Under the pieces are notes generated by a model. That model saw only the letters and a list, made by a program, of their open reading frames with translations, did no database searches and had not been told where the DNA came from. Source: Methyloceanibacter sp. wino2 (GTDB lineage Bacteria > Pseudomonadota > Alphaproteobacteria > Rhizobiales > Methyloligellaceae). From it: 64,000 nucleotides of DNA. Position numbers and translations under genes: made by a program. Shown in pieces: positions 36,581-60,577 of the stretch. Location of the stretch: positions 2,586,501-2,650,500 of the forward strand of contig NZ_CP028960.1 of the NCBI RefSeq assembly GCF_003071365.1, read 5' to 3'. How positions within the stretch are numbered: the stretch's first letter is position 1; each line of letters begins with the position of its first letter.

Positions 36581-36930
36581 GATGAATCCTCGAAGGACTT
36601 GCTCAAGGTTTCATCGCTCAATCCTGCCAAGTGATCTTTTGGAAGTCTAATGTATTCCCGTACCCCCTAGGAGTTACTCACTCAAGAGGATTGCCCCGCC
36701 GTCGTTTCAACACCGAAACTACCGAGCATCAGAACGATATCGGCCCGATTTCGAGGCCGGAAAACTGGTGGCGCAACTCGCGGTTGGAAGCTTGGGCATC
36801 ATGAATAACCGAACTGAGCTTCATACAGTCCACTGCGCCGCGCCACCCATTCATCACCCATCAGAAATGCGTGTAACAGGCAGGCCGTTCGCACTCGCGG
36901 TCGTGCCGTCTTTTGACGTGGAGGGACTAA
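36581..36930. other. 350-bp divergent control region, molybdo-enzyme/livK
   Basis: No gene was seen. It holds the 16-bp inverted repeat at 36661-36676 and the leader of the ABC substrate-binding protein gene. Confidence 0.5.
36661..36676. promoter_or_regulatory. NarL-type 7-2-7 inverted repeat, site A
   Basis: TACCCCCTAGGAGTTA. Its right edge lies 81 bp upstream of the molybdo-enzyme start (36580). It matches the element found before livG, gcvT-like/tmd and the FAD-oxidoreductase operon, and resembles NarL heptamers (TACYYMT) arranged tail to tail. Confidence 0.5.
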
Positions 36931-38223
36931 ATGACAAGCAAATTCACGATTAGTCGCCGCGACTTTCTCGCAACCACGGCGGCGGTAACGGCCATGGCCG
37001 GCGTGTCGATGCCGAAATTCGCCTTCGGCAAGGACAACGTGGTCAAGATCGGCTTCCTCGCCCCCTTGACCGGCGAAGTCTCCGCCTGGGGCAAGCCAGG
37101 TCTGGACGGCTGCAAGATCTGGGCGGACTGGGTCAACGCGGATGGCGGCGTCAAGATCGGCGATGAGGCGTACAAGGTCGAGTTTGTCGCCTATGACGAC
37201 GAGTACGATCCGAGCAAGGCACGGACCGGCGCGGTGAAGCTTGTCAAGGAAGACGACGTCAAGTTCGTCATGATGCTGGGCGGCGATCCGTGGCCGGGTG
37301 CGGCTCCGATCGCAGAGAAAGAGAACATGTTGTTCTCGACCCTCCTGCCGAGCGACCTGAGCCCCGAGACGGAGCTCCTGGTTGCGCCGTGTGAGGTGCA
37401 TCCGATTTACAATGTGACGGGCGTCGAGTGGCTTGCCGAGAACAAGCCGGAACTCAAGACGGCCGTCGTCTGCGCGCAGGATGACTCCCTTGGCAAGCCG
37501 TCTGTGGCGACCTACCTCGCCGCCTTCGAGGCCGCGGGCATCGAGGTCCTTGACGAACCCATCTTCTTCGATCCGGCGACGACCGACTTCGCGCCCCTCA
37601 TGTCCAAGATGCTGGCGCTGAAGCCAGACATCATTTGCCTGGACACGTGCTACGCGGATTATGTGCATCCGTTGGTGGAGCAGGCGTTCCAGCAGGGCTT
37701 CAAGGGCCAGATGATCTCTTGCACGGCCGACTTCTACGAGAAGCTGGTCGAGAAGACGTCCAAGGAGTTCATGGAAGGCTTCATCTTCCAGTTCCCCGAC
37801 TTCGACGACCCGGCGATGAATGCCGAGCACGTGAACTTCAACAAGCCGAACGATTTCTACGCCGAGTACGTGAAGCGGTACGGCAAGGGCGAATGGAGCG
37901 CCGTGTCCTGGGAGTACGCCTCGATCATGGATCTGTGGGCTGACGCCGCGGGACGCGCCGGAACGACCGAACCGGTCAAGGTGCTCGAGGCCATGAAGGT
38001 CGGCGGTACCGGGCGCCAGGCGTTTGGCGAAGCCAAGTGGTGGGGCAAGGAGCTCTTTGGCATCGACAACGCGCTCGTCGGCGAGTGGCCCGTCGTGGCT
38101 ATCAAGGATGGCAAGGCGAAGATCCAGGACTTCAAGTCCATCCCTGCCTGGTGGGAAAAGCATAGCGACCTGATGATCAAGCACATGAAGGCGCTCAATC
38201 AGATGTACTATCAGCGCGGCTAA
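36931..38223 (+). CDS. livK: ABC transporter substrate-binding protein, branched-chain amino acid/amide type
   Basis: 430 residues with a twin-arginine leader (SRRDFLATTAAVTAMAG) and cleavage near FAFGK. The mature protein is a type I periplasmic binding protein (KIGFLAPLTGEVSAWGKPGLDG start; DDEYDPSKA; FVMMLGGDPWPGAAPIAE). This family serves branched-chain amino acids, urea, amides and other small organics. Its place in an amine-catabolism island suggests an amine or amide ligand, which is inference. GGAGG precedes the ATG. livHM follow. Confidence 0.85.
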   Translation: MTSKFTISRRDFLATTAAVTAMAGVSMPKFAFGKDNVVKIGFLAPLTGEVSAWGKPGLDGCKIWADWVNADGGVKIGDEAYKVEFVAYDDEYDPSKARTGAVKLVKEDDVKFVMMLGGDPWPGAAPIAEKENMLFSTLLPSDLSPETELLVAPCEVHPIYNVTGVEWLAENKPELKTAVVCAQDDSLGKPSVATYLAAFEAAGIEVLDEPIFFDPATTDFAPLMSKMLALKPDIICLDTCYADYVHPLVEQAFQQGFKGQMISCTADFYEKLVEKTSKEFMEGFIFQFPDFDDPAMNAEHVNFNKPNDFYAEYVKRYGKGEWSAVSWEYASIMDLWADAAGRAGTTEPVKVLEAMKVGGTGRQAFGEAKWWGKELFGIDNALVGEWPVVAIKDGKAKIQDFKSIPAWWEKHSDLMIKHMKALNQMYYQRG

Positions 38224-38339
38224 ACAGACTGGGCGCAGGCTGGTTCGCAAACGCGGAGCGAACATTGACATCGGCAACGCGTGCCGTGAACGGCGCGGAC
38301 CCGCCAGAGCCATTCTTTCTGTGCAAACGACTGCTGGCA

Positions 38340-38361
38340 CCCGGCCCCATACTGGGCCGGG
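38340..38361 (+). repeat. Intercistronic hairpin between livK and livH
   Basis: A perfect 8-bp stem (CCCGGCCC / GGGCCGGG) has a 6-nt loop and no U-run, and lies 21 bp before livH. Such hairpins often protect the upstream mRNA, giving an excess of binding protein over permease. Confidence 0.55.
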
Positions 38362-38382
38362 CGCGCGGCGGAGCGATATGGA

Positions 38383-39255
38383 ATGACAGCAGAACTTTTC
38401 TTTCAGACAGTCGTCAACGCGACCTACGCCGCGAGCTACATGGCGCTCATCGCGGTTGGATTCGTCCTCATCTTCGGCGTGATGGGCGTGGTCAATTTTG
38501 CCCACGGTGAGCTCTATATGGCAGGGGCTTATACAGTCGTCGCCCTATATGCCGACCAAGGATTGCCATTCTTTCTTTCAGTCGCGGCTGGTCTCGCCTT
38601 TGTCGGGGTGCTCGGACTTCTGATGGAGTTGGCTCTATTCCGGCCCTTACGCGATAATCCATTGGGCGGCCTGATCGCCTCGATCGGTTTTCTCCTCATT
38701 CTGCAGACCATTGCGGTTCTCGGATTCGGCGTGCGGATGAAGAACGTGCCGCCCTCGACGCAGGACAAAATTGTCTTCATGGACGGGGTCGTTCTGACCT
38801 ACCAGAGACTCTACGTCATCGTGGCTGCCGTCGCCCTGCTGGGCGCGCTTTGGGTATTCTTGCGCAAGAGCAAGTTTGGCTGGGCGTTGCGGGCCTGTGC
38901 CCAAGATCGGGAAGCGGCCGTGCTTCAAGGCATGTCGATCAACAACACGGCACGTTTGGCGATGTTCATTGGCGCGGCGCTTGCCGGTGTCGCTGGCGCC
39001 CTGACGGCGCCGTTGGTTTCGCCGACACCCTATATGGGGCACCCGGTCGTCGTTTCCGCCTTCATCATCATTATCGTTGGCGGCCTCGGTTCTTTGGAAG
39101 GGGCTGTTCTGGTCTCGATCCTCTACGCGTTCGTCCACACCTTCGTGACGACGCTCTACGACGGCACCCTGGCGAATATTGTTGGTCTCCTCCTGATGCT
39201 CGGCGTCCTCATCGTGCGGCCAACAGGACTATTTGGAGCGAAAGAACGTGCATAA
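38383..39255 (+). CDS. livH: ABC transporter permease, LivH type
   Basis: 290 residues with about eight transmembrane segments. LivH features are YAASYMALIAVGFVLIFGVMGVVNFAHGELYMAGAY near the start and AFIIIIVGGLGSLEGAVLVSILYAFV near the end, the coupling region for the ATPases. It overlaps livM by eight bases and forms the membrane pore with it. Confidence 0.9.
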   Translation: MTAELFFQTVVNATYAASYMALIAVGFVLIFGVMGVVNFAHGELYMAGAYTVVALYADQGLPFFLSVAAGLAFVGVLGLLMELALFRPLRDNPLGGLIASIGFLLILQTIAVLGFGVRMKNVPPSTQDKIVFMDGVVLTYQRLYVIVAAVALLGALWVFLRKSKFGWALRACAQDREAAVLQGMSINNTARLAMFIGAALAGVAGALTAPLVSPTPYMGHPVVVSAFIIIIVGGLGSLEGAVLVSILYAFVHTFVTTLYDGTLANIVGLLLMLGVLIVRPTGLFGAKERA

Positions 39256-40270
39256 GCCTGACAGTCATTCCGTGAACCTCGCTGCGGCGTTTGGGTTCGT
39301 ACTTCTGGCAGGCGTGCTCGTCGTGCTCCCTCATCTCCTGTCGTTCTCGCAGCAGGAGGTCTTGGTTCTGCTCGTGATCAACGTACTGCTTGTTTGCAGC
39401 TATCGGCTGCTGACGCTGACAGGCGAGTGGTCTCTGGCCCATGCGGTCATTATGGGCGTGGGGGCCTATACATCGGCCCTGGTGGCAAAGAAGCTATCGG
39501 TCCCGGTCCCGCTTGCCATGCTGGCCGGCGCCTCGATGGCGGGCTTTATCGCGTTTCTTCTCAGCTTTCCGTTGTTCCGGATGAAGGGGTTCTACTTTCT
39601 CATTGCGTCCTTCGCGGCCGGCGAGGTCATTCGTCTTTCGTGGAAGTGGAGCGACCTGACGTTTCTGTTCGGCGGCCCGAAGGGCATCAAGCGTATTCCC
39701 GCCTTCCCGGACTTCCTGACGATCGATTTCTATGAGCCGGTGAACTACTACTATCTCTGCCTCGTCGTCGTCGCGATATCCCTTCTCATTCTGTATCGCA
39801 TTGAGAAGTCGCGCATCGGACTGACGTTCCATGCGATTCACTGGCAGGACAAGCTGGCCGAATCCGTCGGCGTCAACACGTTCCGCTACCGGACGCTCGC
39901 CTTCGTGTTCTCCGCGTTCTTTGCCGGTCTCGCCGGTGCGCTCTACGCCCACTATGTGGGGGCGATCGCGCCCAACAGGTTCAGTGTGGAGGAGATGGTC
40001 TACATTCTGATTTGGGCGATCGTCGGCGGGACAGCGACCTTCTACGGACCCATCATCGGCGTCGTGGTGCTGACCATCGTGAACGAAATCGTGCTGCGGT
40101 CGCTCGGTGTTGAGGAGATGCGGCCGATGTTCTACGGCGCGCTCCTGATCATCGCGATCCTGTTCCTGCCCAACGGGCTGGAGAGCCTGGTTCCGAAGAT
40201 CAAGCGACTGTTCCGGGGACGGGACAAAGAGGGGAACGGATCTCTCGCGTCACCTCAAGTCGCAGAGTGA
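39248..40270 (+). CDS. livM: ABC transporter permease, LivM type
   Basis: 340 residues from the GTG at 39248, chosen because GGAG lies nine bases upstream; a TTG at 39233 is less likely. About nine transmembrane segments are visible. GEWSLAHAVIMGVGAYTSALVAKK and LIWAIVGGTATFYGPIIGVVVLTIVNE are characteristic of LivM. It is the last gene of livK-livH-livM. The partner ATPases are encoded on the opposite strand downstream. Confidence 0.9.
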   Translation: MHKPDSHSVNLAAAFGFVLLAGVLVVLPHLLSFSQQEVLVLLVINVLLVCSYRLLTLTGEWSLAHAVIMGVGAYTSALVAKKLSVPVPLAMLAGASMAGFIAFLLSFPLFRMKGFYFLIASFAAGEVIRLSWKWSDLTFLFGGPKGIKRIPAFPDFLTIDFYEPVNYYYLCLVVVAISLLILYRIEKSRIGLTFHAIHWQDKLAESVGVNTFRYRTLAFVFSAFFAGLAGALYAHYVGAIAPNRFSVEEMVYILIWAIVGGTATFYGPIIGVVVLTIVNEIVLRSLGVEEMRPMFYGALLIIAILFLPNGLESLVPKIKRLFRGRDKEGNGSLASPQVAE

Positions 40271-40375: not shown

Positions 40376-40996
40376 CTAGGCGCTAGGATTTGCAGCCGGC
40401 GCAAGTAAGAGCTGACCGGCCGCCAGCAGCTTGCGGGTGTCATTCAACATGGCCGGCCGTTCGCGCCGCCAAGCCGTGAAAACGGCCGCATCGGGCGCGC
40501 TAAGCGTGCCCGGATCGTCCCGCAAAGCCTCAAGGCGCGTTGCCGCGTCCTGGGCGATTTCGTTCCACCGCTTCTGCCACAGGGCGCGGTAGGTATCGCG
40601 GTGAAGAGCCTCCATGCGGAGGTGGAACATCGAACTGCGCGCCACTCTGGGCGCCTGCATGCGTGCGATCCAGGGATGGGCACTGCGCCAGGTCTCAAGG
40701 GCCTTTGTGGTCAGAGCGGGGAGGTCGTTCTTGTCGCCGGTCAGCGCAAGGCATATTCCGAAATTGGCGAGGCTTGTGCCCAGCCGCGGGTCAATTGGTT
40801 CGAAGGTCTCACGCGCGAGCCGCAAGGCGCTGCCCGCCTCGTCCTTTGCCCGCTCGAAGTCTCCTGCACATGCGGCCGAGACCGTTTCCTCGCTGGTGGC
40901 TTCCCACGCCAGATCGTCCTCGCTCCAGCCGGCGTTGACGAGTTCCTGCAGACTCCAGATCTCAGGCGCCGAGGTAGGCTTTTCGAACATGGTCAT
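40376..40996 (-). CDS. Unknown helical protein cotranscribed with livGF
   Basis: About 206 residues from the ATG at 40996 (GGGAG nine bases upstream), so its start lies inside the 3' end of livF and translation is probably coupled. It is almost wholly alpha-helical, with alternating Ala/Leu and Arg/Glu residues. The central part (AACAGDFERAKDEAGSALRLARETFEPIDPRLGTSLANFGICLALTG) resembles a tetratricopeptide pair. No enzyme motif, signal or membrane segment is present. It may be a regulatory or scaffolding partner of the transporter. Confidence 0.65.
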   Translation of the reverse strand: MTMFEKPTSAPEIWSLQELVNAGWSEDDLAWEATSEETVSAACAGDFERAKDEAGSALRLARETFEPIDPRLGTSLANFGICLALTGDKNDLPALTTKALETWRSAHPWIARMQAPRVARSSMFHLRMEALHRDTYRALWQKRWNEIAQDAATRLEALRDDPGTLSAPDAAVFTAWRRERPAMLNDTRKLLAAGQLLLAPAANPSA

Positions 40997-41669
40997 TGTC
41001 GTGCAGCTCCCGTGCTGGTCCTTCCAGCGCGATTGTTCCGGTCTCGAGGACATAGGCGAAATTCGCAAGCTTCAGGGCGAGCTCGGCGTTCTGTTCGACG
41101 AGAACGACGGGAACGCCGCGATCCACGATGTCGCGAATGGCACGCGCCATCTCCTGAACCATGACCGGCGACAAGCCCATGGAGGGCTCGTCGAGGATCA
41201 GCATGCGCGGCCTGGACATCAGGGCGCGGCCGATTGCCAGCATTTGCTGTTCGCCGCCCGAGAGAGACCGGGCCCACTGACCCCGGCGCTCTTCCATGCG
41301 CGGGAAGCGTTTGAAGACGTCGCGTAGGTCCGCTTCGATCCCATCCTTGTCGGATCGCAGGAACGCACCGGTTCTGAGATTCTCTTCGACCGTGAGGTCC
41401 GGGAAAACACGCCGGCCTTCGGGCACATGCGCGATCCCGAGTGCGACAATCTTTTCAGGCGCCAGCCGATCGATGCGCTGGCCGTCGAAAATGATCTCGC
41501 CGTCACTGATCCGGACAAGGCCTGAGATTGCGCGCAAGGTCGTGCTCTTGCCGGCGCCGTTTGCGCCGACGATGGTGACGATGCCCTTGTCGGGAACAGC
41601 CATGCTGACGCCCTTCAGGGCGGCGACCTTGTTGTAGTGAACTTTGACGTTCTTGATCTCAAGCAGCAT
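40962..41669 (-). CDS. livF: ABC transporter ATP-binding protein, LivF type
   Basis: 235 residues. Walker A is GANGAGKST, the signature LSGGEQQMLAIGRALM, and Walker B MLILDEPSMGLSP, with the LivF-type C-terminus GTIALEGPARELHDNDHVRKAYLG. It overlaps livG by 11 bases upstream and the unknown helical gene downstream. Confidence 0.94.
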   Translation of the reverse strand: MLLEIKNVKVHYNKVAALKGVSMAVPDKGIVTIVGANGAGKSTTLRAISGLVRISDGEIIFDGQRIDRLAPEKIVALGIAHVPEGRRVFPDLTVEENLRTGAFLRSDKDGIEADLRDVFKRFPRMEERRGQWARSLSGGEQQMLAIGRALMSRPRMLILDEPSMGLSPVMVQEMARAIRDIVDRGVPVVLVEQNAELALKLANFAYVLETGTIALEGPARELHDNDHVRKAYLGA

Positions 41670-42441
41670 CGATTGCGGTTCCCAGATAGGCTTCGATAAC
41701 GGCGGGGTTGGTGCGAACTTCTTCCGGCGTGCCTTCGGTCAAGAGCGTTCCGAAGTTCAGTACCGTGATGATATCGCAGAGGCCCATGACCGCCTGCATG
41801 TCGTGTTCGATCAGCATGATGGTCACACTCTGCTCCTCGCGGATGCGCCGGACGAGTTTGATCATCTGCCGTGTTTCTTCGGGGTTCATCCCGGTAAAGG
41901 GCTCATCGAGAAGCAGCAGCCGCGGTTCGGCGGCAAGTGAGACCGCCAGTCCAAGGGCGCGCTGGTGGCCGTGCGACAGGTTCGCCGTCAACTCGTCCGC
42001 CAGATGCGCAAGATTGAGGAACTCGAGGATCTCGTAAGCCTTGACCCTTGCGGCCGCCTCGATGTTGCGGTCCGTTCCGAGGATTCGGCTGAGCACGCCT
42101 GCCTTCGCACTGCGATGGCATCCCAGCAGAACGTTCTCGATCACGGTGAATTCGTGGAACAGCGTGGTGCCTTGAAACGTGCGGATCAGGCCGCGCTCGG
42201 CAAGCGCGCTGGTCGGCCGGCCCGAAACGTCCTCACCGCAATACAAAATCTTGCCCCGTGACGGCGGATAGAAGCCGCTGATGACGTTGAAGGTCGTTGT
42301 CTTGCCGGCGCCGTTGGGACCGATCAGGCCGTGGATTGTGCCCTCACGAACAGTCAGGCTGAGATCGTTGATGGCGACGATGCCGCCAAAGATGCGGCCA
42401 AGATCGCGAACCTCAAGAATGGGCGTTTGTGTCTGCATCAT
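41659..42441 (-). CDS. livG: ABC transporter ATP-binding protein, LivG type
   Basis: 260 residues. Walker A is GPNGAGKTT. LivG has a variant signature, here ANLSHGHQRALGLAVSLA, followed by Walker B LLLLDEPFTGMNP and IMLIEHDMQAVMGLCD. It is the first gene of the minus-strand livG-livF-unknown unit, with a 16-bp inverted repeat 83 bp before its start. Confidence 0.93.
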   Translation of the reverse strand: MMQTQTPILEVRDLGRIFGGIVAINDLSLTVREGTIHGLIGPNGAGKTTTFNVISGFYPPSRGKILYCGEDVSGRPTSALAERGLIRTFQGTTLFHEFTVIENVLLGCHRSAKAGVLSRILGTDRNIEAAARVKAYEILEFLNLAHLADELTANLSHGHQRALGLAVSLAAEPRLLLLDEPFTGMNPEETRQMIKLVRRIREEQSVTIMLIEHDMQAVMGLCDIITVLNFGTLLTEGTPEEVRTNPAVIEAYLGTAIDAA

Positions 42442-42523: not shown

Positions 42524-42539
42524 TACCTCTTAGGAGTTA
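42524..42539. promoter_or_regulatory. NarL-type 7-2-7 inverted repeat, site B
   Basis: TACCTCTTAGGAGTTA. Its left edge is 83 bp upstream of the livG ATG and its right edge 111 bp before the divergent permease start. The left heptamer TACCTCT is a perfect match to the NarL half-site TACYYMT. Confidence 0.5.
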
Positions 42540-42649
42540 CTTCGATCAGAGCATTGCTGGCTCGTAGCGGATGCGGGACCTTCGTGCGGACAACAAAACA
42601 ACAGGACGGGGCCTAGGAACCGTCCCAGTCGGGGAACGATCGAAAGCCG

Positions 42650-44266
42650 GTGGCCGTAGAAGACGTGGGACAAGACGCCGGCGAAAGCCCGCGGTCGCTG
42701 CAGAGGCAGATTGGTTGGCGGGATGCATTCTGGGTCGCCAGTGGCGTCCCGGCCCTGGTTCTTTTTACCATGGGCGGTGTCGCCGCCACCTCAGGCAAGG
42801 CCTCCTGGCTCGTCTGGGTCGCGGCCATCACGGTGGCCTTTATCCAGGCCTTCACCTACGCGGAAATCGCGGGACTCTTTCCGGGCAAGTCCGGTGGTGC
42901 GGCCATCCACAGCGCGATCGCCTGGTCACGATACGGCAAGCTGTTCGCCCCGATCGCGGTGTGGTGCAATTGGTCGGCGTGGTCGGTGGTGCTGTCGATC
43001 GGTGCCGGGCTCGGCGCCGGTTACGTTCTCAACCTGTTTTTCGCCCCGGACGCCGCCATCACGAGTTGGCAAATCGTGCTGGCCGATCTCGGATGGCTGA
43101 AGGAGGGGCTCACCTTACGCATCAACGCGACGTTCATCGTCGCGGCCACGCTGCTCCTTGGCTGCTTCGCGATCCAGCGGGGCGGCATCCTTCAGTCTGC
43201 GCGCGTGACCATGCTGCTTGGGATTGCGGCGCTCGTGCCGCTCATTCTAATCGGCATCGTTCCGCTGTTCACCGGCGACATGCCGCGCGAGAATTTCTTG
43301 CCGCTGGTCCCGCTGGCCTACAACGCGGCCGGTCAAGCGGTCGACGGCACCTGGGACAAGGCGGGTTGGATCGCTGTCAGCGGCGCCTTGTTCGTTGCCT
43401 TGTGGTCCGCCAACGGGTTCGAGACGGCCGCCTGCTATACGCGCGAATTCAAGGACCCGGCCCGGGATACGTTTCTGGCGCTGATGTCGTCGGGGCTGTT
43501 GTGCGTCGGGGTCTTCACGCTCGTGCCGCTAGCCTTTCAAGGCTCGCTCGGGATCGAAGGCATGATCGCGCCGGGTATCCGCAGCGGCATGGATGTGGGT
43601 CATGTTCTGGCCGACATTCTCGGCGGCGGCTTGGTGCTGGAAACCATCGTCGCGGTGCTGCTGATCCTCGCGATCCTGCTCTGCATCATGACGGCGATGT
43701 CCGGCGCCGCGCGGACGTCCTATCAGGGTTCGGTCGAGGGATGGCTGCCGCGCTACCTCTCCCACGTGAACAAGTCAGGCGCCCCCACACACGCCATGTG
43801 GACGGACCTGGTTCTCAATCTCGGCCTTCTGCTGATGTCCGACTACATCTTCGTCCTGGCCGCGACCAATGTCTCCTACATGGTCTTCACGTTTCTCTAC
43901 GTGAACGCGGGCTGGATACACCGGCTCGATCGCCCCGACTGGGTCCGGCCTTATCGGGTCCCGCGGGTCCTTCTGATCGCCGGCGTCCTGATGTCGTTCG
44001 TCAACATGGCCGTGGCCGGGATCGGTGCGAACATATGGGGGCAGGGCACCTTGCTGACCGGCTTCGTCATCGTGTTCCTGGCCGTGCCGTTCTTCATCTA
44101 CCGGCACTATGTGCAGGACAAAGGCGTCTATCCGGAGAACATGGCCGAGGACATGCATCTCGGCCCGGAGGCTGGCGTGGCGACGCGTGGGGGGGTGCTG
44201 CCTTATCTGGCACTCGCCGCCGCGGTGGCCGTCACGCTAGCCTGCCATCTCTGGGCATCGGCTTGA
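42650..44266 (+). CDS. APC-superfamily amino acid/amine permease
   Basis: 538 residues from the GTG at 42650, about twelve transmembrane segments. The APC start is recognisable (GWRDAFWVASGVPALVLFTMGGVAATSG), as is the conserved GLFPGKSGGAA loop and the substrate-binding helix ALWSANGFETAACYTREFKDP. Family members carry amino acids, polyamines or small amines as exchangers or symporters. It is divergent from livG and convergent to the GcvT-like gene. An amine or amino-acid substrate linked to methylamine use is likely but unproven. Confidence 0.82.
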   Translation: MAVEDVGQDAGESPRSLQRQIGWRDAFWVASGVPALVLFTMGGVAATSGKASWLVWVAAITVAFIQAFTYAEIAGLFPGKSGGAAIHSAIAWSRYGKLFAPIAVWCNWSAWSVVLSIGAGLGAGYVLNLFFAPDAAITSWQIVLADLGWLKEGLTLRINATFIVAATLLLGCFAIQRGGILQSARVTMLLGIAALVPLILIGIVPLFTGDMPRENFLPLVPLAYNAAGQAVDGTWDKAGWIAVSGALFVALWSANGFETAACYTREFKDPARDTFLALMSSGLLCVGVFTLVPLAFQGSLGIEGMIAPGIRSGMDVGHVLADILGGGLVLETIVAVLLILAILLCIMTAMSGAARTSYQGSVEGWLPRYLSHVNKSGAPTHAMWTDLVLNLGLLLMSDYIFVLAATNVSYMVFTFLYVNAGWIHRLDRPDWVRPYRVPRVLLIAGVLMSFVNMAVAGIGANIWGQGTLLTGFVIVFLAVPFFIYRHYVQDKGVYPENMAEDMHLGPEAGVATRGGVLPYLALAAAVAVTLACHLWASA

Positions 44267-44382: not shown

Positions 44383-45492
44383 CTATTCCTCAACACGCAG
44401 GCGCATTGGGTCGTAGAACGGGGTCCGCACCACCGTACCGGTGCAAATGCCCGGTTCGCCGCCCAACGTCACCTGCGTGCCAAGTCCGGTATAGTCCGGG
44501 AGGAGATGAACCATAGCCAAGGACTTCATGAGGTACCGGCTGAAACTCGAACTGGTGACGACACCGATATCTTTGCCGTCCTTGAAGATGCGCGTGCCGG
44601 GTTCGACCGCGTCGTCGGTGTCACACACGATGCCGGCTTGTTTGACTCGCTCCCGACCGCGAAGGGAAAGGACCGCCTGCTTGCCGATGTAGTCCGCTTG
44701 CTTGTCCTCATCGATGCCCCAGCCCATGTTGACTTCCCACGGAGTCGTGTCGCCTTCGGGCATGTCGTAGGGGAAGAACAGAAGCGTGGACTCGACCCGG
44801 ATGAGATCGAGCGATGTCCAAGAGGCCGGGACCACGCCGAACTCTTTGCCGGCGGCCAGAATGTTATCCCACATCTCACCGGCATCGGCTGACGAGCAAT
44901 AGACCTCGTATCCACGCTCTCCCGAATATCCGCAGCGGCCGATAATGACGTCCTTGCCGAACAGGGTCGTCTTGGCGTGATTGAAGAAGGGGAGCGTCTC
45001 CAGCGCCATGGGCGTATGGGGGTTCAGCGTTTTCAGAGAAGCCGGACCCTGCAGCGACAGAACGTGGGTATCCCGGTCCCACTCGACGGAAACGTTCTTG
45101 CCCGCGGAGACCTTCTTGAGATGTTCCGGCGTGGCGCCGCTGCCGTGGGTTACGCGGTATTCGTCCGGTCCATCGCAAATAATCATGATGTCGTCGACGA
45201 GGGCGCCGTTCTCGTTGACTTCCGCGCCCAGCCGTGCCGTGCCCGGAGCGATCGTGGATACGTCGATGGCCACGAGGCCATTGAGCGTGGCAACGGCGTC
45301 GGGGCCCGTCACGCGCACGATATTCAGCGCCGAAACGTCGTAGAGCCCGGCGCAGGTCCGTACCGAGACGACTTCGTCGTTCGGATCGGTGGCATAGCTC
45401 CATGGCACGCGCATATCGCACCATGTCTCGCCGTCGAGTTTCGATCCCAGAGCTTCGTGTCGACTGTTCAATGCGGAGTTTCGCGTGCTCAT
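44383..45492 (-). CDS. GcvT-like tetrahydrofolate-dependent aminomethyltransferase-family protein
   Basis: 369 residues covering the whole GcvT fold: AGLYDVSALNIVRVTGPDAVATLNGL near residue 48, the folate-site Asp pair in NENGALVDDIMI, RCGYSGERGYEVY, and a C-terminal barrel (EPGTRIFKDGKDIGVVTSSSFSRYL). It is not accompanied by gcvH or gcvP, so it is not the glycine cleavage enzyme. Relatives include DMSP demethylase and the folate domain of TMAO demethylase and dimethylglycine dehydrogenase. Divergent placement from trimethylamine dehydrogenase suggests it captures released formaldehyde as methylene-tetrahydrofolate. Confidence 0.8.
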   Translation of the reverse strand: MSTRNSALNSRHEALGSKLDGETWCDMRVPWSYATDPNDEVVSVRTCAGLYDVSALNIVRVTGPDAVATLNGLVAIDVSTIAPGTARLGAEVNENGALVDDIMIICDGPDEYRVTHGSGATPEHLKKVSAGKNVSVEWDRDTHVLSLQGPASLKTLNPHTPMALETLPFFNHAKTTLFGKDVIIGRCGYSGERGYEVYCSSADAGEMWDNILAAGKEFGVVPASWTSLDLIRVESTLLFFPYDMPEGDTTPWEVNMGWGIDEDKQADYIGKQAVLSLRGRERVKQAGIVCDTDDAVEPGTRIFKDGKDIGVVTSSSFSRYLMKSLAMVHLLPDYTGLGTQVTLGGEPGICTGTVVRTPFYDPMRLRVEE

Positions 45493-45577: not shown

Positions 45578-45593
45578 TACTCTCGTGGAGGTA
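45578..45593. promoter_or_regulatory. NarL-type 7-2-7 inverted repeat, site C
   Basis: TACTCTCGTGGAGGTA. Its left edge is 86 bp upstream of the GcvT-like gene start, nearly the same distance as sites A and B from theirs. Confidence 0.48.
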
Positions 45594-45641: not shown

Positions 45642-45657
45642 TAACCCCAAGTGGGTA
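45642..45657. promoter_or_regulatory. NarL-type 7-2-7 inverted repeat, site D
   Basis: TAACCCCAAGTGGGTA, in the same divergent region as site C and 188 bp before the trimethylamine dehydrogenase start. It is followed by three AATTGG repeats at 45670-45691, and a similar GGAATTG follows site E. Confidence 0.42.
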
Positions 45658-45793
45658 TCCATCCAAGGGAATTGGAATTGGGCTGAATTGGCCGAGACTT
45701 GCATGGCCAAGATGTCTCGGGTTGGGCGGCCGGTTCGGCACATAACAATAAGCCGGACGAAACTTTTTCCGAGCTCTGGCTGGTCGAGAATAG

Positions 45794-48040
<2,247 letters not shown>

Positions 48041-48049
48041 AACGACTTT

Positions 48050-50381: not shown

Positions 50382-50388
50382 GACCATC

Positions 50389-51732: not shown

Positions 51733-51772
51733 GGACAACATCGGAAAGGAATATTGGTGTGAGGGTAAGACC

Positions 51773-52564
51773 ATGAAAATCCTAGTTCCCGTCAAGCAGA
51801 TCGCCGTCGTGGACGAGGACTTCGAGCTTCGTGATGACGGCAAGGACGTCGATCCCGACTATCTGAACTTCGAAGCGAATGAGTGGGACGACTATTCCTA
51901 CGAAGCCGCGCTGAACATTATGGAAGCGTCGGACGGTGTCGAAGTCGTTCCTGTGACCGTCGGTCCGGACGATGCCGAGGATGTTCTGCGCCGTTGCCTC
52001 GCCAAGGGGGGCGATAGAGGCATTCGGGTGTGGGACGACGCGCTGGAAGACGCAAACCCCGCGGTCGTTGCGCAAGTCCTCGCCGGAGTCGCAGCGCGCG
52101 AAAAGCCGGACATGATCCTGACCGGGACACTGTCTTCCGACCGGTCTTATGCCCAAACCGGCGTCGCCCTTGCGGCCGCTCTCGGCTGGCCGCATGTGGC
52201 GGTCGTCACAGGGATTGAGTGGACGCCGGGCGACCCGAAGGCCACGCTCCTTCGCGAGCTCGAGGGCGGACTTGTGGAGAAGCTCTCGGTGGAGTGTCCC
52301 GCTGTCCTGACGATCCAGCTTGGCATCAACACGCCGCGCTACGCATCGCTGCGCGGCCTGAAACAGGCGAAAGAGAAGCCCGTCGAGGAACTGTCTCTGG
52401 ACCATCTCGGTCTATCCGGCGACAGCCTCGCCGAACTAGCTTCGTTTCGCGTTCGGCGTATGTACAAGCCGGAGACGGGTCAGGCCGAACTCATTGAAGG
52501 TACGCCGGCCGAGCAGGCCGCGCGCCTTGCGGAAATCATTAAAGAACTCAAGGGAGCGGCATAA
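51773..52564 (+). CDS. etfB: Electron transfer flavoprotein, beta subunit
   Basis: 263 residues. It starts MKILVPVKQIAVVDEDF, and has the AMP-binding region LTGTLSSDRSYAQTGVALAAALGWPHV and the family signature around INTPRYASLRGLKQAKEKP. It forms the ETF heterodimer with the next gene, overlapping it by one base (TAATG). Its place in the tmd cluster marks it as the dedicated acceptor of trimethylamine dehydrogenase and not the fatty-acid ETF. Confidence 0.93.
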   Translation: MKILVPVKQIAVVDEDFELRDDGKDVDPDYLNFEANEWDDYSYEAALNIMEASDGVEVVPVTVGPDDAEDVLRRCLAKGGDRGIRVWDDALEDANPAVVAQVLAGVAAREKPDMILTGTLSSDRSYAQTGVALAAALGWPHVAVVTGIEWTPGDPKATLLRELEGGLVEKLSVECPAVLTIQLGINTPRYASLRGLKQAKEKPVEELSLDHLGLSGDSLAELASFRVRRMYKPETGQAELIEGTPAEQAARLAEIIKELKGAA

Positions 52565-53526
52565 TGGGAGAGATCCTTGTGATCGCGGAGCATCGCCAGG
52601 GGCAACTCAACCCGGCCTCGCTGGAAGTCATCGCCGCGGCTGTCGCGTTGAAGGAAGAGTCCGGCCACAAGGTGACCGTCGCGGTCATCGCGGAATCGCC
52701 GGATGACTTCGCGGGCCTCGTAGCGAAGGCCGGTGTCGACGAAGTCGTGAAGGTGCCCGTCCCGGTGGCCTCGTTTCAGAGCGATACCTATGAGGCTGCT
52801 GTCTTGGCGCTCGCCGAGGCGCGGAAACCGGCCGTCATCATGTGCGCGCACACCGTGGATGCCTGGGGCTATGCACCGGCAGTCGCGGCACGCGGTCAGT
52901 TCGGCTGTGCGACGGATGTCTTCGAGATGCGCTTCGAGGCCGAAGGCCTTGTTGCCGTCCGTGCCGCCTACGCGGAAAAACTGCATATGGAAGTCGACTT
53001 CCCGGGCAAGGAAACCGTACTGCTGACTGTCCGGACGAATGTCTTCAAACCCTTGGAAGACGACGGAAGCCCAGCCGTGACCTCGTTCGAGGCGCCCTCG
53101 GCGGAAGCACACACGGAACACCTGACCTTTGTCGAACCGGAGCAAACCGGCGACGTCGATATCACGCAAGCAGAGTACATGCTGTCGATCGGGCGTGGTG
53201 TCGGCGAGGAAGACAATGTCGAGGAGTTCAAGGAACTCGCCGATGCGTTCGGGTTCACCTTGGGCTGTTCCCGACCGATCGCCGACAATGGCTGGCTGCC
53301 GAAGTCGCGCCAAGTCGGTCAGTCGGGGAAGACCGTCGCCAAGTGCAAGATCTATCTGGCGCTGGGTATCTCCGGTTCCGTCCAGCACATGGCCGGCATG
53401 AAACACGTGCCGAACATCATCGCGGTCAACAAGGACGCTGAAGCATCCATCTTCACGATCGCGAAGTACGGCATCGTTGGAGACATGTTCGAAATCGCCG
53501 AGGAATTGCGCGACCAGGACTCCTAA
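52564..53526 (+). CDS. etfA: Electron transfer flavoprotein, alpha subunit
   Basis: 320 residues. The C-terminal FAD domain is well conserved: LSIGRGVGEEDNVEEFKELAD, GCSRPIADNGWLPKSRQVGQSGKTV, LALGISGSVQHMAGM and IAVNKDAEASIFTIAKYGIVGD. The His of the SVQHMAGM motif contacts flavin in homologues. It ends the tmd to etfA run. Confidence 0.94.
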   Translation: MGEILVIAEHRQGQLNPASLEVIAAAVALKEESGHKVTVAVIAESPDDFAGLVAKAGVDEVVKVPVPVASFQSDTYEAAVLALAEARKPAVIMCAHTVDAWGYAPAVAARGQFGCATDVFEMRFEAEGLVAVRAAYAEKLHMEVDFPGKETVLLTVRTNVFKPLEDDGSPAVTSFEAPSAEAHTEHLTFVEPEQTGDVDITQAEYMLSIGRGVGEEDNVEEFKELADAFGFTLGCSRPIADNGWLPKSRQVGQSGKTVAKCKIYLALGISGSVQHMAGMKHVPNIIAVNKDAEASIFTIAKYGIVGDMFEIAEELRDQDS

Positions 53527-53565: not shown

Positions 53566-54948
53566 CTAGGCCGCAGGCGCATCGTCCAGATTTGCAATCT
53601 CGATACGGCCAAGTCCGAGATTGCTCGCACGTGCCGCTGCGCCGGAGGCGATCCCAAGGACGTCTTCGGCGCTGTCCGTCGTGGCGGCCTCGAAGCCGGT
53701 TGCAAGGCCGATGCTCGTCGTGAGGAAGAAGGCATCATCGCCGTCGCCGATAGGCGCGCGCAGAGCCTTTTGGACCTTTTCGGCGAGCTTGATGGCGTCG
53801 TCGACCGACTGCGTCCTCGTGCGCAGGATGGCAAATTCATTGCGCGTCCAGCGGCACAACGAGTCCGACCGGTCCAGGGCACCTTCGATGCGGCGCCCGA
53901 TGTTGAGCAGGGCCCGCTCTCTGTCTTCGGGTGCGAGCGACTCATGCCAGTTCTGTAGCTGGTTCAAATGGACGACCAGAATGGCTGGGTGCTCGCCGGG
54001 CGTGGCGTTCAGCAATGCCATTTTGATGCGATCGAGGAAGAGTGCCGGCGTCGGAAGTTCGCTGGCAGAATCGTAGAGGCTGTCGCCCCTCAGTCTCAGC
54101 TGTTCGTGCCGCTCCCGCGTGATGTCGGTGATGAAGCCCTCGACGCCGAGAAGTTCGCCGCTGGTATAGAAGTTGCCGTGTCCCCGCTCGAGGACCCACT
54201 TCACATCGCCGCTCGCGGTCTGAATACGATACATCAGCTCGAACGGACGGTTCTCGCGTACGGCGGCCTGAACGTGTTCCCAGACTTGTTCGCGGTCTTG
54301 AGGCAGGATGAGGTCGGCATAAGTAAGTTGCTTGTTGTTGACCAGGGCCTCCGCCGGGTAGCCGGTCAACGCCTCACAGCCCTTACTCATATATTCCATC
54401 GTCCACTGACGATTGTTGCGGCAACGGTAGACGAGGCCGGGCAGGTTGTTGATCAGGATATCGAGGGTCCGGTGGGTGGCTTCCCTGATATTCTCCTGCT
54501 GCACGCGGTTGCCGACTTCCGACAGCGTGCCCACGAAGCCGCGGCAGACATTGTCTTTGGAAATCAACCCTTGCGCACTGGCTTCCAGGTAAACGGTTTC
54601 GCCCGAACGCGTCAGGAAGCGAAGAACGAGAACAGGATGTCCTTCAGGGTCGCGCTTGGATGCATCCAAGAAGCGCACCCAGCGGTCCTGATCCCGCGGG
54701 TGGAGGTAGTAGGCGTTCGGAAGCCCGCGCGTGTCTGCCGGGCTAAATCCTGTGAGGCGCTCCCAAGCTGCATTCGCATAGCGGAGCCGACCGTCCGTGT
54801 CGGCCACGAACACGATCGTCTCAACGGCATCCAGAAGCAGTTCGAAGAGGTGCGGTTGGGTCGGCACGAGCCCGGAGGGCCCGGTCTCAAACAAGGAGCC
54901 TGCGCGCGCAAGGATCTCCGACAGTTGTTTGATTGTGGTATTTCCCAT
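53566..54948 (-). CDS. Double-PAS protein with degenerate GGDEF domain
   Basis: 460 residues, soluble. PAS-1 occupies about 35-150 (ETIVFVADTDGRLRYANAAWERLTGF) and PAS-2 about 165-290 (NLPGLVYRCRNNRQWTMEYMSKGCEALTGY). A GGDEF fold of ~160 residues follows, but the active-site motif reads RWTRNEF in place of GGDEF, so it should not make cyclic di-GMP. It may bind GTP or cyclic di-GMP or act through protein contacts. It is convergent with etfA, next to the NarL/NarX-type genes. Confidence 0.82.
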   Translation of the reverse strand: MGNTTIKQLSEILARAGSLFETGPSGLVPTQPHLFELLLDAVETIVFVADTDGRLRYANAAWERLTGFSPADTRGLPNAYYLHPRDQDRWVRFLDASKRDPEGHPVLVLRFLTRSGETVYLEASAQGLISKDNVCRGFVGTLSEVGNRVQQENIREATHRTLDILINNLPGLVYRCRNNRQWTMEYMSKGCEALTGYPAEALVNNKQLTYADLILPQDREQVWEHVQAAVRENRPFELMYRIQTASGDVKWVLERGHGNFYTSGELLGVEGFITDITRERHEQLRLRGDSLYDSASELPTPALFLDRIKMALLNATPGEHPAILVVHLNQLQNWHESLAPEDRERALLNIGRRIEGALDRSDSLCRWTRNEFAILRTRTQSVDDAIKLAEKVQKALRAPIGDGDDAFFLTTSIGLATGFEAATTDSAEDVLGIASGAAARASNLGLGRIEIANLDDAPAA

Positions 54949-55354
54949 TTCGCGAAAGCTCTTCTGGACTGTGCGGCGCGTCCGATCCTCAGGTCTTCGC
55001 CCTTGGCGTACTGAAGATAGTCTCGCTCGGCAGATCGGTTAGTCAACAAGCAAAAGTGTTGATGATCTTAATGGGTACTACATTGGTGGTATCGAACAGA
55101 GCGTGGATCAACTCGCCAAGTGTCTATGTGTAGCGCGAGGTGTAGCGCGAGAGTTTCTGATGGGACAAACGCAACTGTCTCGTTGGAGGAATAGGCGGAC
55201 CATTCAGCGCGGGGATGCTTTGTGGTGTCTAAGTCCAAAGGTACGGTCGGGTCGGGTCGGGTTGATACTCGGACATCTGCCTATGGAAGGCTGCCGGACC
55301 AACAAGAGTAGCCTCTGCGTGGTGCGGATCGGCGCCAGGGGGCACGACGTTGTA
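54949..55354. other. 406-bp region with tandem repeats
   Basis: No convincing gene was seen. It contains a perfect tandem repeat of GTGTAGCGCGAG (55128-55151), a run of GGGTC pentamers (55245-55263) and a half-site ATGGGTA (55071-55077). The half-site is the complement of TACCCAT and lies 123 bp upstream of the PAS/GGDEF gene. Confidence 0.4.
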
Positions 55355-55990
55355 TCAGGGCGTTAATGCCCAGACAGCCGCCTCAAGCCGCGACTGCAGA
55401 TTCAGCTTTCGCAGAAGGTTCTTCACGTGAACCTTGACGGTTCCGTCGCTGATGTTGAGGTCCCGCGCGATGTGCTTGTTGCTCTTGCCGGCAGCGATCA
55501 GTTGCAGGATCTGCTTCTCTCGGGTTGTGAGGCATTCGGCGTCGGGCGCGGGCTTCGGTGCTCCATCGCGCATGGCGCCCAGCAGAAGATTCATCAGTGG
55601 CTCGGTAAAGACCGACTCGCCGCGCGCGGCAAGCCGCAGCTTGTTCAGGATCTCTTCCGGCTCGGATCCCTTCAGCAGATAGCCCTTGGCCCCGGCCCGT
55701 ACGGCGCGAAGAAAATCCGTCTCGGCGTCCGACACCGTCAGCATGATGACTTCGGTGCTGAGTTCGGCCTCCTTGATGCGCCGGAGCGCTTCGAGTCCGC
55801 TCCCTTCGCCCATGTGCATATCCATGATGACGAGATCTGGACCGAGCGATTCAGCAAGGGCCACGCCGTCGTCGCAGGTGGCGGCTTCGCCGACGACCTC
55901 GAAGTCCGGTTGAGACGAGATCAACTGTGCGACGCCCGAGCGGAATAGGGGATGATCATCTACCAACAAGACTTTGCAGCACTCAGCCAT
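55355..55990 (-). CDS. NarL/FixJ-type response regulator
   Basis: 211 residues. Receiver domain: acidic pair Asp11-Asp12, phospho-acceptor Asp57 (VIMDMHMGEG), and Lys in AKGYLLKGSEPEEI. The C-terminal LuxR-type helix-turn-helix is LTTREKQILQLIAAGKSNKHIARDLNISDGTVKVHVKNLLRKL. The kinase gene lies 12 bp upstream on the same strand. Proteins of this class bind paired heptamers in 7-2-7 order, which is the form of the repeats found before the amine genes. Confidence 0.9.
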   Translation of the reverse strand: MAECCKVLLVDDHPLFRSGVAQLISSQPDFEVVGEAATCDDGVALAESLGPDLVIMDMHMGEGSGLEALRRIKEAELSTEVIMLTVSDAETDFLRAVRAGAKGYLLKGSEPEEILNKLRLAARGESVFTEPLMNLLLGAMRDGAPKPAPDAECLTTREKQILQLIAAGKSNKHIARDLNISDGTVKVHVKNLLRKLNLQSRLEAAVWALTP

Positions 55991-56002
55991 ACCAACACCT
56001 TC

Positions 56003-57196
56003 TCAGTCGACAATCGCATTGACGCCCAGATCGTCCGTGCCGGGGCAATACACGTTGAGACGCGTGCCACCACCCGTACGGTCCTCGATGCGGAACGTTC
56101 CGCCGAGCGCGCGGGCGCGCTCCTGCATGATGATGAGGCCGTGATGGTGCTCGCCGTCTTGCAGGGCGAGTTGCATGCCGACCCCGTTGTCCTCGACCCG
56201 CATTAGAATGGCGCCATCGTCGCGGACGCGGACGCTGACCCAGCAAAGACTCGCGTGCGAGTGGCGTACGACGTTGCAAAGCGCTTCGCGAAGAATAAGC
56301 AGTAGCTGCATCTCGTCGGAGACCGTCAGCCGTCCCGCCTTCAAGCGGTTGTCCAAGTCGAAGGCGATGGAGCTACGGCGCTCGAACTCTTCGATCGAAT
56401 CTTCCAGTGCTTGCGAAAACGTCCTGCCGCGCATCGTCAAACGGAAGGTCGTGATCAACTCGCGCAGTTGCAGGTCCGCGGTGCTGAGCGTGCTTCGCAC
56501 TTCCTGAAGCGTCTTTTCGATATCGGGAACACTGTCGGTACGCTTGCGCAGCGTGTCCTGCAGCAGGCTTACCTTCACTTTCAGATACGATATGGACTGC
56601 GCGAGCGAGTCGTGCAGTTCGCGCGCAATCGCGGCACGTTCCTCGCTCTGCGCGCTGCGCAGCTTCATGCGAGCGCATCGTGCACTCTCGATGACGCCTG
56701 AGAGATACTCGGTGAACGATTCCAGCGTTGTCCTGGACACAGGGATTTCGCTGCTCTCGACGCGTAAGAGGAGAAGGCCGATGCCCGAAATGCCTTGGGA
56801 GAAACTCTGCACGACGACGGAGGAATGCGGGTCTGTCACATCGCCGACGATCTTGGGGCCCTCGGGCGTGTCCAAGGAGGAAAACAGACGGCTCTGCCGG
56901 ATAATGTGGAGCCAGCGGGACCGATCGTCATCTCCGACAACCGCGAGCTGAACCAACTGCCGGCCGCTTTCGGTGCTGACGAAGATCGCACCGGACCGGG
57001 CATCGGTCATATCCATGATGTGAGAAAGAACGAGCTCGAAGGGCTCTACGGAGTCCGGGTCGGAGAGGAGGCGCGTCAGAATCTTGTTGAGCAGGTTTAT
57101 TGTCGTGCTCGGGCTTTGCTCTCGCTCGCTGCCGACCAGGCAGGGGGCGAACCATGCGGAACGCGGGGCCAGCTTTGTCCCTCGCGCTTCCGTCAT
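56003..57196 (-). CDS. Soluble NarX-type sensor histidine kinase with GAF domain
   Basis: 397 residues with no transmembrane helix. A GAF-like sensor domain spans about 35-170, followed by HisKA_3 with phospho-acceptor His195 (IARELHDSLAQSISYLK) and an HATPase domain (LREALCNVVRHSHA; VEDNGVGM; GLIIMQERARALGG). It should phosphorylate the adjacent NarL-type regulator. The sensor lies in the cytosol, so it may read redox, oxygen or a metabolite. A FixK/FNR-type box is located 117 bp upstream of its start. Confidence 0.88.
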   Translation of the reverse strand: MTEARGTKLAPRSAWFAPCLVGSEREQSPSTTINLLNKILTRLLSDPDSVEPFELVLSHIMDMTDARSGAIFVSTESGRQLVQLAVVGDDDRSRWLHIIRQSRLFSSLDTPEGPKIVGDVTDPHSSVVVQSFSQGISGIGLLLLRVESSEIPVSRTTLESFTEYLSGVIESARCARMKLRSAQSEERAAIARELHDSLAQSISYLKVKVSLLQDTLRKRTDSVPDIEKTLQEVRSTLSTADLQLRELITTFRLTMRGRTFSQALEDSIEEFERRSSIAFDLDNRLKAGRLTVSDEMQLLLILREALCNVVRHSHASLCWVSVRVRDDGAILMRVEDNGVGMQLALQDGEHHHGLIIMQERARALGGTFRIEDRTGGGTRLNVYCPGTDDLGVNAIVD

Positions 57197-57312: not shown

Positions 57313-57326
57313 TTGACCTTGATCAA
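57313..57326. promoter_or_regulatory. FNR/FixK-type box
   Basis: TTGACCTTGATCAA matches the FNR/FixK consensus TTGAY-N4-RTCAA exactly. It lies in the divergent region between the kinase gene (start 57196) and the XRE-cupin gene (start 57451), so it may tie either gene to oxygen supply. Confidence 0.55.
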
Positions 57327-57340
57327 GCACAGCAGCATTG

Positions 57341-57355
57341 TTCAATATCATTGAA
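57341..57355. promoter_or_regulatory. Palindrome upstream of the XRE-cupin gene
   Basis: TTCAATATCATTGAA is a perfect 6-3-6 inverted repeat 96 bp before the XRE-cupin start. It may be its operator. An AGGGGTA half-site follows at 57370-57376. Confidence 0.4.
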
Positions 57356-57450
57356 TAATATTCATGGCCAGGGGTAATAGTAATCGGCTATGCTGGTATT
57401 CGCATAGCGTGTTGCGCTGCAGCACAGCGGCGACCAACGGACACTAAGCA

Positions 57451-58101: not shown

Positions 58102-58167
58102 GCCGGCCCCTGGGGCCGACCCCTCGCGTCGTCTGCCGCGGCGCCGATACCGCGCCCGGCAATCCGA

Positions 58168-58959: not shown

Positions 58960-59048
58960 GGGGTCCTCAAGTCAGAGAGTTGGAGGGGATTTCGCGCTTC
59001 ATCTCCGGCAGCCGTAATGGCCGGATCACGCGCGCCGGTGAGGCGCTA

Positions 59049-60326
59049 TCAGGTCGATTGTGTTCCATCCATTTCACCGCTCATCGCGTTCAGATGAGGC
59101 AATTGATGGCCCAGCTTGTCGCGCTTCGTTTCCAGATAGCGCTGGTTGGCGGCATTGGGTTCGATGCGGAGCGGCACCTTTTCGACGACCTGCAGCCCAT
59201 CTGCCTTGAGCGCGTGGACCTTGCGAGGATTGTTCGTCAGGAGACGGATGCGCTGGAGGCCGAGAAACTTCAGAATTTGTGCGCTGATCGTGTAGTCGCG
59301 CTTATCGGCCGGGAAGCCGAGATGAAGATTCGCCTCGACCGTATCGAGCCCTTCGTCCTGCAGCCTGTAGGCGGCCAACTTGTTGGCGAGCCCGATCCCG
59401 CGTCCTTCCTGGCGCATATAGAGCAGGACGCCGCAATCCGCCGCCGCGATGCGCTCAAGGGCGGCATCGCGTTGTTCGCCACAGTCGCAGCGCAGCGAGT
59501 GGAAGACGTCGCCCGTCATGCACTCCGAGTGCAGGCGCACCAAGACGGGTTTCTGAACCGGTGGGGTGCCCATCACGGTTGGCCCGGTGATCCCGCGGGT
59601 CAGGGCAAGATGCTCGGAGCCATCCAGGATGCTGCGGAAGAGATGCAGCATGAAGGTCCCATACCGCGTCGGCATCGGGAGGTTGAGTTCGACGGGTTCG
59701 AACAGCCGCTCGGTCTGCTGACGGTAGGCCACGAGGCTCTCGATCGTGCAGACCTTGAGGTCGAACCTCCGCGCAAATCTGTGCAGGTCGGGTGTCCGCG
59801 CCATGGTGCCATTGTCGTTCATGATCTCGCAGATCACGCCCGCAGGCCGCGCACCGGCGAGTTTGGCGAAATCGACGATGGCTTCCGTATGACCCGGGCG
59901 CACCAAGACCCCGCCGCTCTTCGCCCGTAAGGGAAAGATGTGGCCGGGCCGGTTGAAATCCACCGAGGATGCCTCGGGATCCGCGGCACGCCTGACCGTG
60001 TGGGCCCGGGCCTGGGCACTGATGCCGGGCCCCGGGGCGTCGGCAGCATCGATGGGAATCGTGAAGCCGGTGCCGAAGGCGTTGCTGTGGCGTTTCGGCT
60101 GCAGCTCTAGCCCGAGCCGATCGCAATCGTCCTCCCGGAGCGGAAGACAAATGAGTCCGCGTGCTTGCGTGGCCATGAAACTGATGGCTTCGGGCGTCGC
60201 GTGCTCGGCGAGCATCACGAGGTCGCCCTCGTTCTCCCGGTCCGGGTCGTCGATCAGGACGACCATACGGCCCTGTTGCAAATCGTCGACGGCGTCGGCT
60301 ACCGAGCAAAAGTGATCCTTCATCAT
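59049..60326 (-). CDS. ribBA: RibBA: DHBP synthase/GTP cyclohydrolase II
   Basis: About 425 residues from the ATG at 60326 (60323 is equally possible; the frame runs to 60410). The N-terminal DHBP synthase domain contains DDPDRENEGDLVMLAEHATPE and RPGHTEAIVDFAKLAGARPAGVICEI. The C-terminal GTP cyclohydrolase II domain has the zinc cysteines CMTGDVFHSLRCDCGEQ and the catalytic RQEGRGIGLANKL. Both riboflavin branches start here. Placement inside the amine island may provide flavin for trimethylamine dehydrogenase, ETF and the FAD oxidoreductase. No FMN riboswitch was seen upstream. Confidence 0.93.
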   Translation of the reverse strand: MMKDHFCSVADAVDDLQQGRMVVLIDDPDRENEGDLVMLAEHATPEAISFMATQARGLICLPLREDDCDRLGLELQPKRHSNAFGTGFTIPIDAADAPGPGISAQARAHTVRRAADPEASSVDFNRPGHIFPLRAKSGGVLVRPGHTEAIVDFAKLAGARPAGVICEIMNDNGTMARTPDLHRFARRFDLKVCTIESLVAYRQQTERLFEPVELNLPMPTRYGTFMLHLFRSILDGSEHLALTRGITGPTVMGTPPVQKPVLVRLHSECMTGDVFHSLRCDCGEQRDAALERIAAADCGVLLYMRQEGRGIGLANKLAAYRLQDEGLDTVEANLHLGFPADKRDYTISAQILKFLGLQRIRLLTNNPRKVHALKADGLQVVEKVPLRIEPNAANQRYLETKRDKLGHQLPHLNAMSGEMDGTQST

Positions 60327-60561
60327 GTGAATTACGATAGCTGAGCTTTCAACTGATGAAACTACACCCGAAGAGATAGTCCCCAGGAGGAAGGCCGTTC
60401 CGGCCGCCATCTGGCATTCGGCGTATGTCCTCAGAGTGAGGCCGCGCGATCGCCGGCTCGAGCCGGCCCCGCAAACGTTGAGTTTGGGGGCATTTTTGGC
60501 GTATGATCAGGATTTATGGGTGCGACAATTCTCGCCGGCGCTCGGACACAATTCCGACACC

Positions 60562-60577
60562 TACCCTCCAATGGGTA
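60562..60577. promoter_or_regulatory. NarL-type 7-2-7 inverted repeat, site E
   Basis: TACCCTCCAATGGGTA, with its right edge 115 bp before the FAD-oxidoreductase start. The right heptamer reads TACCCAT on the minus strand, a perfect TACYYMT half-site. A second ATGGGTA lies at 60597-60603. Confidence 0.48.

Follow-up and report, generated by a model that had tools for sequence, protein, structure and literature searches.

Two-component control linked to trimethylamine N-oxide (TMAO) is familiar from TorS and TorR, which control the TMAO reductase used in respiration, TorR being of another regulator family than the one considered here. In the literature accessible to us, the trimethylamine genes of Ruegeria pomeroyi are controlled by the AraC-type regulator TmaR together with TmoR (PMC13390433, a paper whose text nowhere matches NarL, two-component or histidine kinase). 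NarL sites are described as TACYYMT heptamers (PMC4886647) arranged as 7-2-7 inverted repeats, and for Escherichia coli NarL activation is described from single 7-2-7 sites with centres at -44.5, -67.5 and -77.5 (PMC7419079); in Methylophaga, NarXL has been treated for nitrate genes (PMC4689864). Here we describe, in a 64,000-nucleotide stretch of the Methyloceanibacter sp. wino2 genome (NZ_CP028960.1, positions 2,586,501 to 2,650,500 of the forward strand; hereafter the window), an island of amine genes with 7-2-7 repeats that are probably the operators of a two-component system of NarL type that was recruited for the catabolism of methylated amines. A sequence-only reading of the window had supposed such a regulon to be undescribed. 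Our literature search, with subscription journals mostly and bioRxiv preprints wholly outside its coverage, likewise gave no NarL-type amine regulator, and the accessible parts of PMC3925955 (which includes TorS), PMC4543880 and PMC6548844 hold nothing on one.

Three of the repeats belong to a composite promoter element, in which exactly 13 bp separate the 16-bp repeat from an ATTG that follows it. The sites and the two regulatory genes are:

36661..36693, plus strand: 7-2-7 site (36661-36676) in a composite that ends with ATTG (36690-36693) and faces the binding-protein/livHM operon
42524..42556, plus strand: 7-2-7 site (42524-42539) in a composite that faces the TMAO permease gene; AATG variant on the livG side
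45578..45593, no strand assigned: 7-2-7 site between the gcvT-like gene and tmd, without composite on either side
45642..45674, plus strand: 7-2-7 site (45642-45657) and composite, facing tmd
55076..55091, minus strand: weak 7-2-7-like site before the PAS-GGDEF gene, matrix score 8.7
55355..55990, minus strand: response regulator of NarL type with Response_reg and GerE domains (Pfam), the candidate for binding the sites
56003..57196, minus strand: histidine kinase with a NarQ/NarX-like core and, tentatively, an N-terminal PAS/GAF-like fold; no predicted membrane segments
60562..60577, no strand assigned: 7-2-7 site, without composite, before the soxB-like/glutamine-synthetase-like (methylamine) operon

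The five repeats other than the weak one at 55076 are real, and all lie where the sequence-only reading had placed them. Its list lacked the sixth, at a position where G013, G008, Methyloligella and locus L065 have stronger sites than the window (G and L numbers denote genomes and loci of our set). The likeness it saw to NarL-family heptamer pairs holds as far as the accessible descriptions go, with TACYYMT-like heptamers in the same arrangement. The form it gave, TAMCYMY-N2-RKRGKTA, fits 36661, 42524 and 45642 and is departed from by 45578 and 60562, and its distances of 81, 83 and 86 bp are correct as start-to-start differences, the gaps between site and gene being 80, 82 and 85 bases. Across the genome (one contig, 3,209,973 bases) the exact form matches these three sites and no other place, all in the island. 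A relaxed form has four exact places, three of them in the island, and with at most one mismatch 25 places, five in the island and 20 outside, compared with 55 for a reversed control form. Such counts are circular, the sites themselves being the source of the form; the non-circular support is conservation in relatives together with matrix matches in taxa that took no part in building the matrix.

Conservation before orthologous genes, which had been proposed as a check, is seen in diverged intergenic DNA. The island is syntenic in G003, G004, G005 and G013. In the comparison with G013, 13-14 of 16 bases are retained at four sites lying in intergenic DNA that is 50-54% identical, and other comparison windows are equally conserved in 6 of 304, 4 of 162, 6 of 275 and 0 of 275 cases. 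The corresponding figures against G003, which is less diverged and makes the test less telling, are 23 of 304, 13 of 162, 28 of 275 and 14 of 275, with 7 of 235 for site 60562. A matrix built from the sequences of 13 sites in the window, G003 and G013, for which about 0.4 places per Mb are expected by chance at the score of the weakest window site (first-order Markov simulation, 20 Mb), found matching sites before amine genes of related methylotrophs, as the sequence-only reading had suggested looking for, including taxa outside the matrix building. Methyloligella has matches before its gcvT-like, livG and binding-protein genes, and the PAS-GGDEF gene is preceded by one in Methyloligella, G008 and G013. 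The permease gene, gcvT-like gene and tmd are replaced in G008 by a gene for trimethylamine monooxygenase (NF058570, 828.5 bits against a cut-off of 675); this gene is preceded by two sites and livG by one, site 45578 being kept there. Trimethylamine-dehydrogenase homologues in genomes without a close regulator (L031-L039) have no place scoring at least 12, a weak test because these homologues are only 40-48% identical.

The genes concerned in the island are:

34551-36580, minus strand: formate-dehydrogenase-like molybdo-enzyme gene, as two overlapping open reading frames (ORFs) in different frames
36931..40270, plus strand: target operon with genes for a binding protein and two liv-type permeases
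40962..42441, minus strand: livF- and livG-type ATPase genes, probable target
42650..44266, plus strand: TMAO permease (808.4 bits, cut-off 690), target
44383..45492, minus strand: GcvT-like gene, possible target
45845..48040, plus strand: tmd (name from the sequence-only reading), a flavoprotein of the old yellow enzyme type; start at the conserved ATG
60692..63527, plus strand: soxB-like oxidase and glutamine-synthetase-like genes, earlier called the methylamine operon

Site 36661 had been assigned to the molybdo-enzyme. We rejected this gene as its main target and reassign the site to the plus-strand binding-protein operon, because the composite faces that way and because G008 and Methyloligella keep the site before that operon in stretches that, as far as read, contain nothing matching the molybdo-enzyme. 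The assignment of 42524 to livG stands in part: an AATG variant lies on that side, but the target was incomplete, since the composite faces the TMAO permease. The split in the molybdo-enzyme gene may be a real frameshift or a sequencing error, the two being indistinguishable here. The soxB-like operon has its site in G000, G003, G004, G005, G007 and G010; universal control of this operon was rejected, its upstream region having no site in G008, G009, G013, G015 or G035. Upstream of the soxB-like gene, L147, L148, L149 and L151 show another promoter type, with repeated ACCAATT-like words and without a NarL-type site. A second inverted repeat, TTGAACCAGGTTCAA (60606-60620), lies between site 60562 and the soxB-like gene; it is largely kept in relatives that have the 60562 site and is possibly the operator of another regulator.

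Matching sites recur before amine genes well beyond this group, in Methyloligella, Methylophaga, Methyloversatilis, Derxia and Pseudomonas. A regulator-alignment search of genome contigs gave 529 confirmed relatives, among which 80 loci were listed; a marker rule separated these into 52 amine-linked loci and 28 others. Once three Methyloceanibacter-group loci, genes with an uncovered start and regions shorter than 150 bases had been dropped, 18 of 76 upstream regions of amine-cluster genes scored at least 14, a number reached by none of 300 symmetric column permutations (mean 0.60, maximum 13). Pseudomonas accounts for 46 of the 58 regions scoring below 14, and the site there lies between the dimethylamine-monooxygenase operon and the kinase gene. 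The amine regulon that had been proposed, with NarL-type sites and an adjacent pair, is thus found again in several genera, where pair and sites travel with trimethylamine genes.

The spacing of the composite is rigid. Counted over the 80 loci without hand-picking, it occurs 29 times, in 24 of the 52 amine-linked loci and in none of the 28 others, and spacers of 8-12 or 14-19 bases give 0-3 occurrences in either set. Another fourteen loci, all from Pseudomonas, have a degenerate site with ATTG still in the same position behind it. Among 62 hand-picked sites, each read in either direction, 37 of 124 readings have ATTG at offset 14, compared with at most 4 at any other offset up to 60; for five sites from loci that are not amine-linked the figure is 0 of 10. 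Over 385 genomes of the class the strict composite has 10 matches in 8 genomes, three being the window promoters and the rest falling singly in seven other genomes (reversed control, 5 matches). A looser composite was sought in 40 genomes reached via the loci, 30 of amine type and 10 not; the latter gave 11 matches against 4 in the reversed control. Taking one locus per matching genome, an amine-cluster gene lies within 1.5 kb of it in 20 of 25 amine-type genomes and 0 of 5 others, although in L165, one of the 20, the composite faces away from the amine gene and towards the contig edge. In Methyloversatilis thermotolerans the composites are found at tmm, about 1.1 Mb from the regulator gene, so the link between site and regulator exceeds mere neighbourhood.

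That the island encodes a NarL/NarX-like pair is borne out: the regulator scores 261.1 bits on the NCBI NarL model (cut-off 250), and the kinase is NarQ/NarX-like in its core. The best match of the regulator in the PDB is E. coli NarL (1a04), with an identical recognition helix, TVKVHVK, that is invariant in six relatives, and the phosphoacceptor aspartate is present. In a regulator tree of 60 rows (22 Pseudomonas rows were left out before building) the amine label changes 5 times compared with 20.1 for shuffled labels, and 31 of 32 amine-linked rows fall on one 34-row branch, with L104 outside; two of the three unlinked rows on that branch are Methyloversatilis with tmm composites elsewhere in the genome. 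Sites of the 7-2-7 form are linked to the regulator, which is predicted to bind such pairs. G010 encodes an orphan NarL-type regulator (L023) whose phosphoacceptor aspartate is replaced by glutamate, and the 90%-complete draft of this genome gave no match to the kinase at 1e-40; the genome keeps the site at the soxB-like operon, and these features suggest a kinase-free version of the system.

The kinase is of the HisKA_3 type (Pfam), and its scores of 206.3 on the NarQ model (cut-off 553) and 168.3 on the NarX model (cut-off 578) are both far below threshold. Its sequence looks soluble. A simple hydropathy rule predicts no membrane segment for the kinases of the Methyloceanibacter, Methyloligella, Bin_9R and Pseudomonas loci, and does predict such segments for those of Methylophaga and the betaproteobacterial amine loci. 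The structure model is modest (pLDDT 71.9, pTM 0.43), and Foldseek matches it best to LOV kinases, DesK and VraS, TM-scores being low for the full-length matches; we tentatively describe the N-terminal part as PAS/GAF-like. Several N-terminal cysteines common to the Pseudomonas kinases (L093, L092, L103, L127), and absent from that of the window, are perhaps a metal or redox site.

The P-box has a role in nitrate sensing by kinases of the NarX/NarQ type. A P-box-like motif occurs in 0 of 54 amine-clade kinases and 14 of 20 others (Pseudomonas rows outside the tree were placed in the amine clade by linkage), and the three contrast loci checked hold NapA or NarG. The nitrate sensing that NarX-likeness might imply is accordingly disfavoured for this kinase, which lacks the motif. 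The strongest alternative to recruitment for amine catabolism is nevertheless that the pair senses nitrate or redox state and tunes amine use to denitrification, as an ordinary NarXL with extra targets. Nitrate respiration is plausible in this organism because the genome encodes a NarG above the family cut-off, and the regulator itself passes the NarL model, yet we judge the idea improbable: besides the missing motif and the low NarQ and NarX scores, nothing upstream of narG scores above 6 (two places elsewhere in its 20-kb stretch do), and the module also adjoins tmm and dmm monooxygenase genes. No NapA above the cut-off was found in the genome.

A little less probable still is that another protein binds the repeats, such as the cupin-helix-turn-helix (cupin-HTH) protein encoded within the island at 57451 or another LuxR-type regulator among the 28 genome matches to ours (E up to 0.001). 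The cupin-HTH is found in Hyphomicrobiaceae loci, in L065 and, at 42%, in L112, but not in the site-bearing Methylophaga, Methyloversatilis and Pseudomonas loci, where the NarL-type gene is present by locus selection, and the form of the sites is the one known for NarL. That the repeats are chance matches picked by eye can be dismissed almost entirely, for although the form was fitted to the sites and its relaxed version has the 20 places outside the island, conservation, the out-of-sample sites, the fixed 13-bp spacing and recurrence before amine genes in other genera all speak against chance.

Several observations weigh against the repeats being operators of an amine-responsive NarL-type system. 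G008 and G013 have the regulator and a soxB-like operon without a site; G007 has that site and no close regulator in its 81%-complete draft. Two of the five window sites, 45578 and 60562, lack the composite, as do 28 of the 52 amine loci in its strict form, and the 45 looser matches in amine-type genomes, compared with 15 in the reversed control, include chance matches. Support for the amine-regulator branch (93/90) is just under the tool's star. Extra targets elsewhere in the genome were rejected: of five non-island places examined in context, three lie inside mechanically called ORFs (L057, L058, L061) and the two between ORFs (L059 and L060, scores 13.9-15.4) have no recognised amine gene nearby. 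A further non-island place scores 16.3.

What was computed here, namely the sites, their conservation and fixed spacing, their association with amine genes and with a single regulator branch, and the absence of a P-box-like motif, is best explained by the following scheme. The kinase, being without the nitrate P-box, would sense a methylated amine or a metabolite of one and phosphorylate the NarL-type regulator, a dimer of which would bind the 7-2-7 repeats. The core promoters would be those of the binding-protein/liv operon, TMAO permease and tmd, and in other genera those of tmm, dmm and gcvT-like genes. If the TTG of ATTG is the start of a -35 element, as we infer, the bound regulator would sit just upstream of RNA polymerase, a position from which it would activate.

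We lean, by a small margin, towards a history in which one NarL lineage was recruited once to amine catabolism and spread over Alpha-, Beta- and Gammaproteobacteria. Regulator and rigid composite would have been kept, the sensor part of the kinase repeatedly exchanged (a soluble PAS/GAF-like form, membrane forms with a short or a long loop) and the oxidising enzyme switched among Tmd, Tmm and Dmm, with one relative lacking the kinase and having a regulator with a possible phosphomimic. Through a PAS or PAS-GGDEF partner, amine supply would be linked with another signal, which in Hyphomicrobiaceae is perhaps cyclic di-GMP. PAS-only relatives of the window's partner adjoin the pair in L078 (Methylophaga) and L093 (Pseudomonas). 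The remaining island features are:

48207..53526, plus strand: Fe-S protein, leucine-rich-repeat-variant protein, etfB and etfA, downstream of tmd
53566..54948, minus strand: PAS-PAS-GGDEF protein adjoining the NarL-type pair

The leucine-rich-repeat-variant protein (50311-51732) sits between the Fe-S protein and etfB, and relatives of it precede etfB in two Methylophaga loci. A Gcw_chp-family gene of the window (PF09694, 32493-33299) has relatives at 31-36% in Methyloversatilis (L171, L173, L174 and L175), lying between the TMAO permease gene and tmm.

In the literature that we found, the switching on of trimethylamine and TMAO use has been resolved for a Roseobacter, where the regulator is of AraC type. 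For many other Proteobacteria, among them cultured Pseudomonas and Methyloversatilis, the present findings supply a regulator with its kinase and a promoter layout, and control of amine use is therefore directly testable in these bacteria. They also provide a clear example of sensor exchange in which regulator and operator stay fixed.

Compared with TmaR and TmoR, as portrayed in the accessible text, the system shares coordinated control of trimethylamine catabolic genes in Proteobacteria. It differs from the AraC-type TmaR in that the regulator here consists of a receiver and a LuxR-type HTH, Pfam finding no AraC domain in it. With TorS/TorR it has in common two-component control linked to TMAO. 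The closest parallel is with NarX/NarQ and NarL/NarP of E. coli, with which it shares a NarL-type regulator with an identical recognition helix, a HisKA_3 kinase and 7-2-7 repeats, and from which it departs in its amine-gene targets, a kinase without a P-box-like motif and a genome whose narG is free of sites. The ATTG composite 13 bp beyond the repeat, seen in no nitrate-type locus examined, sets it apart from the nitrate systems.

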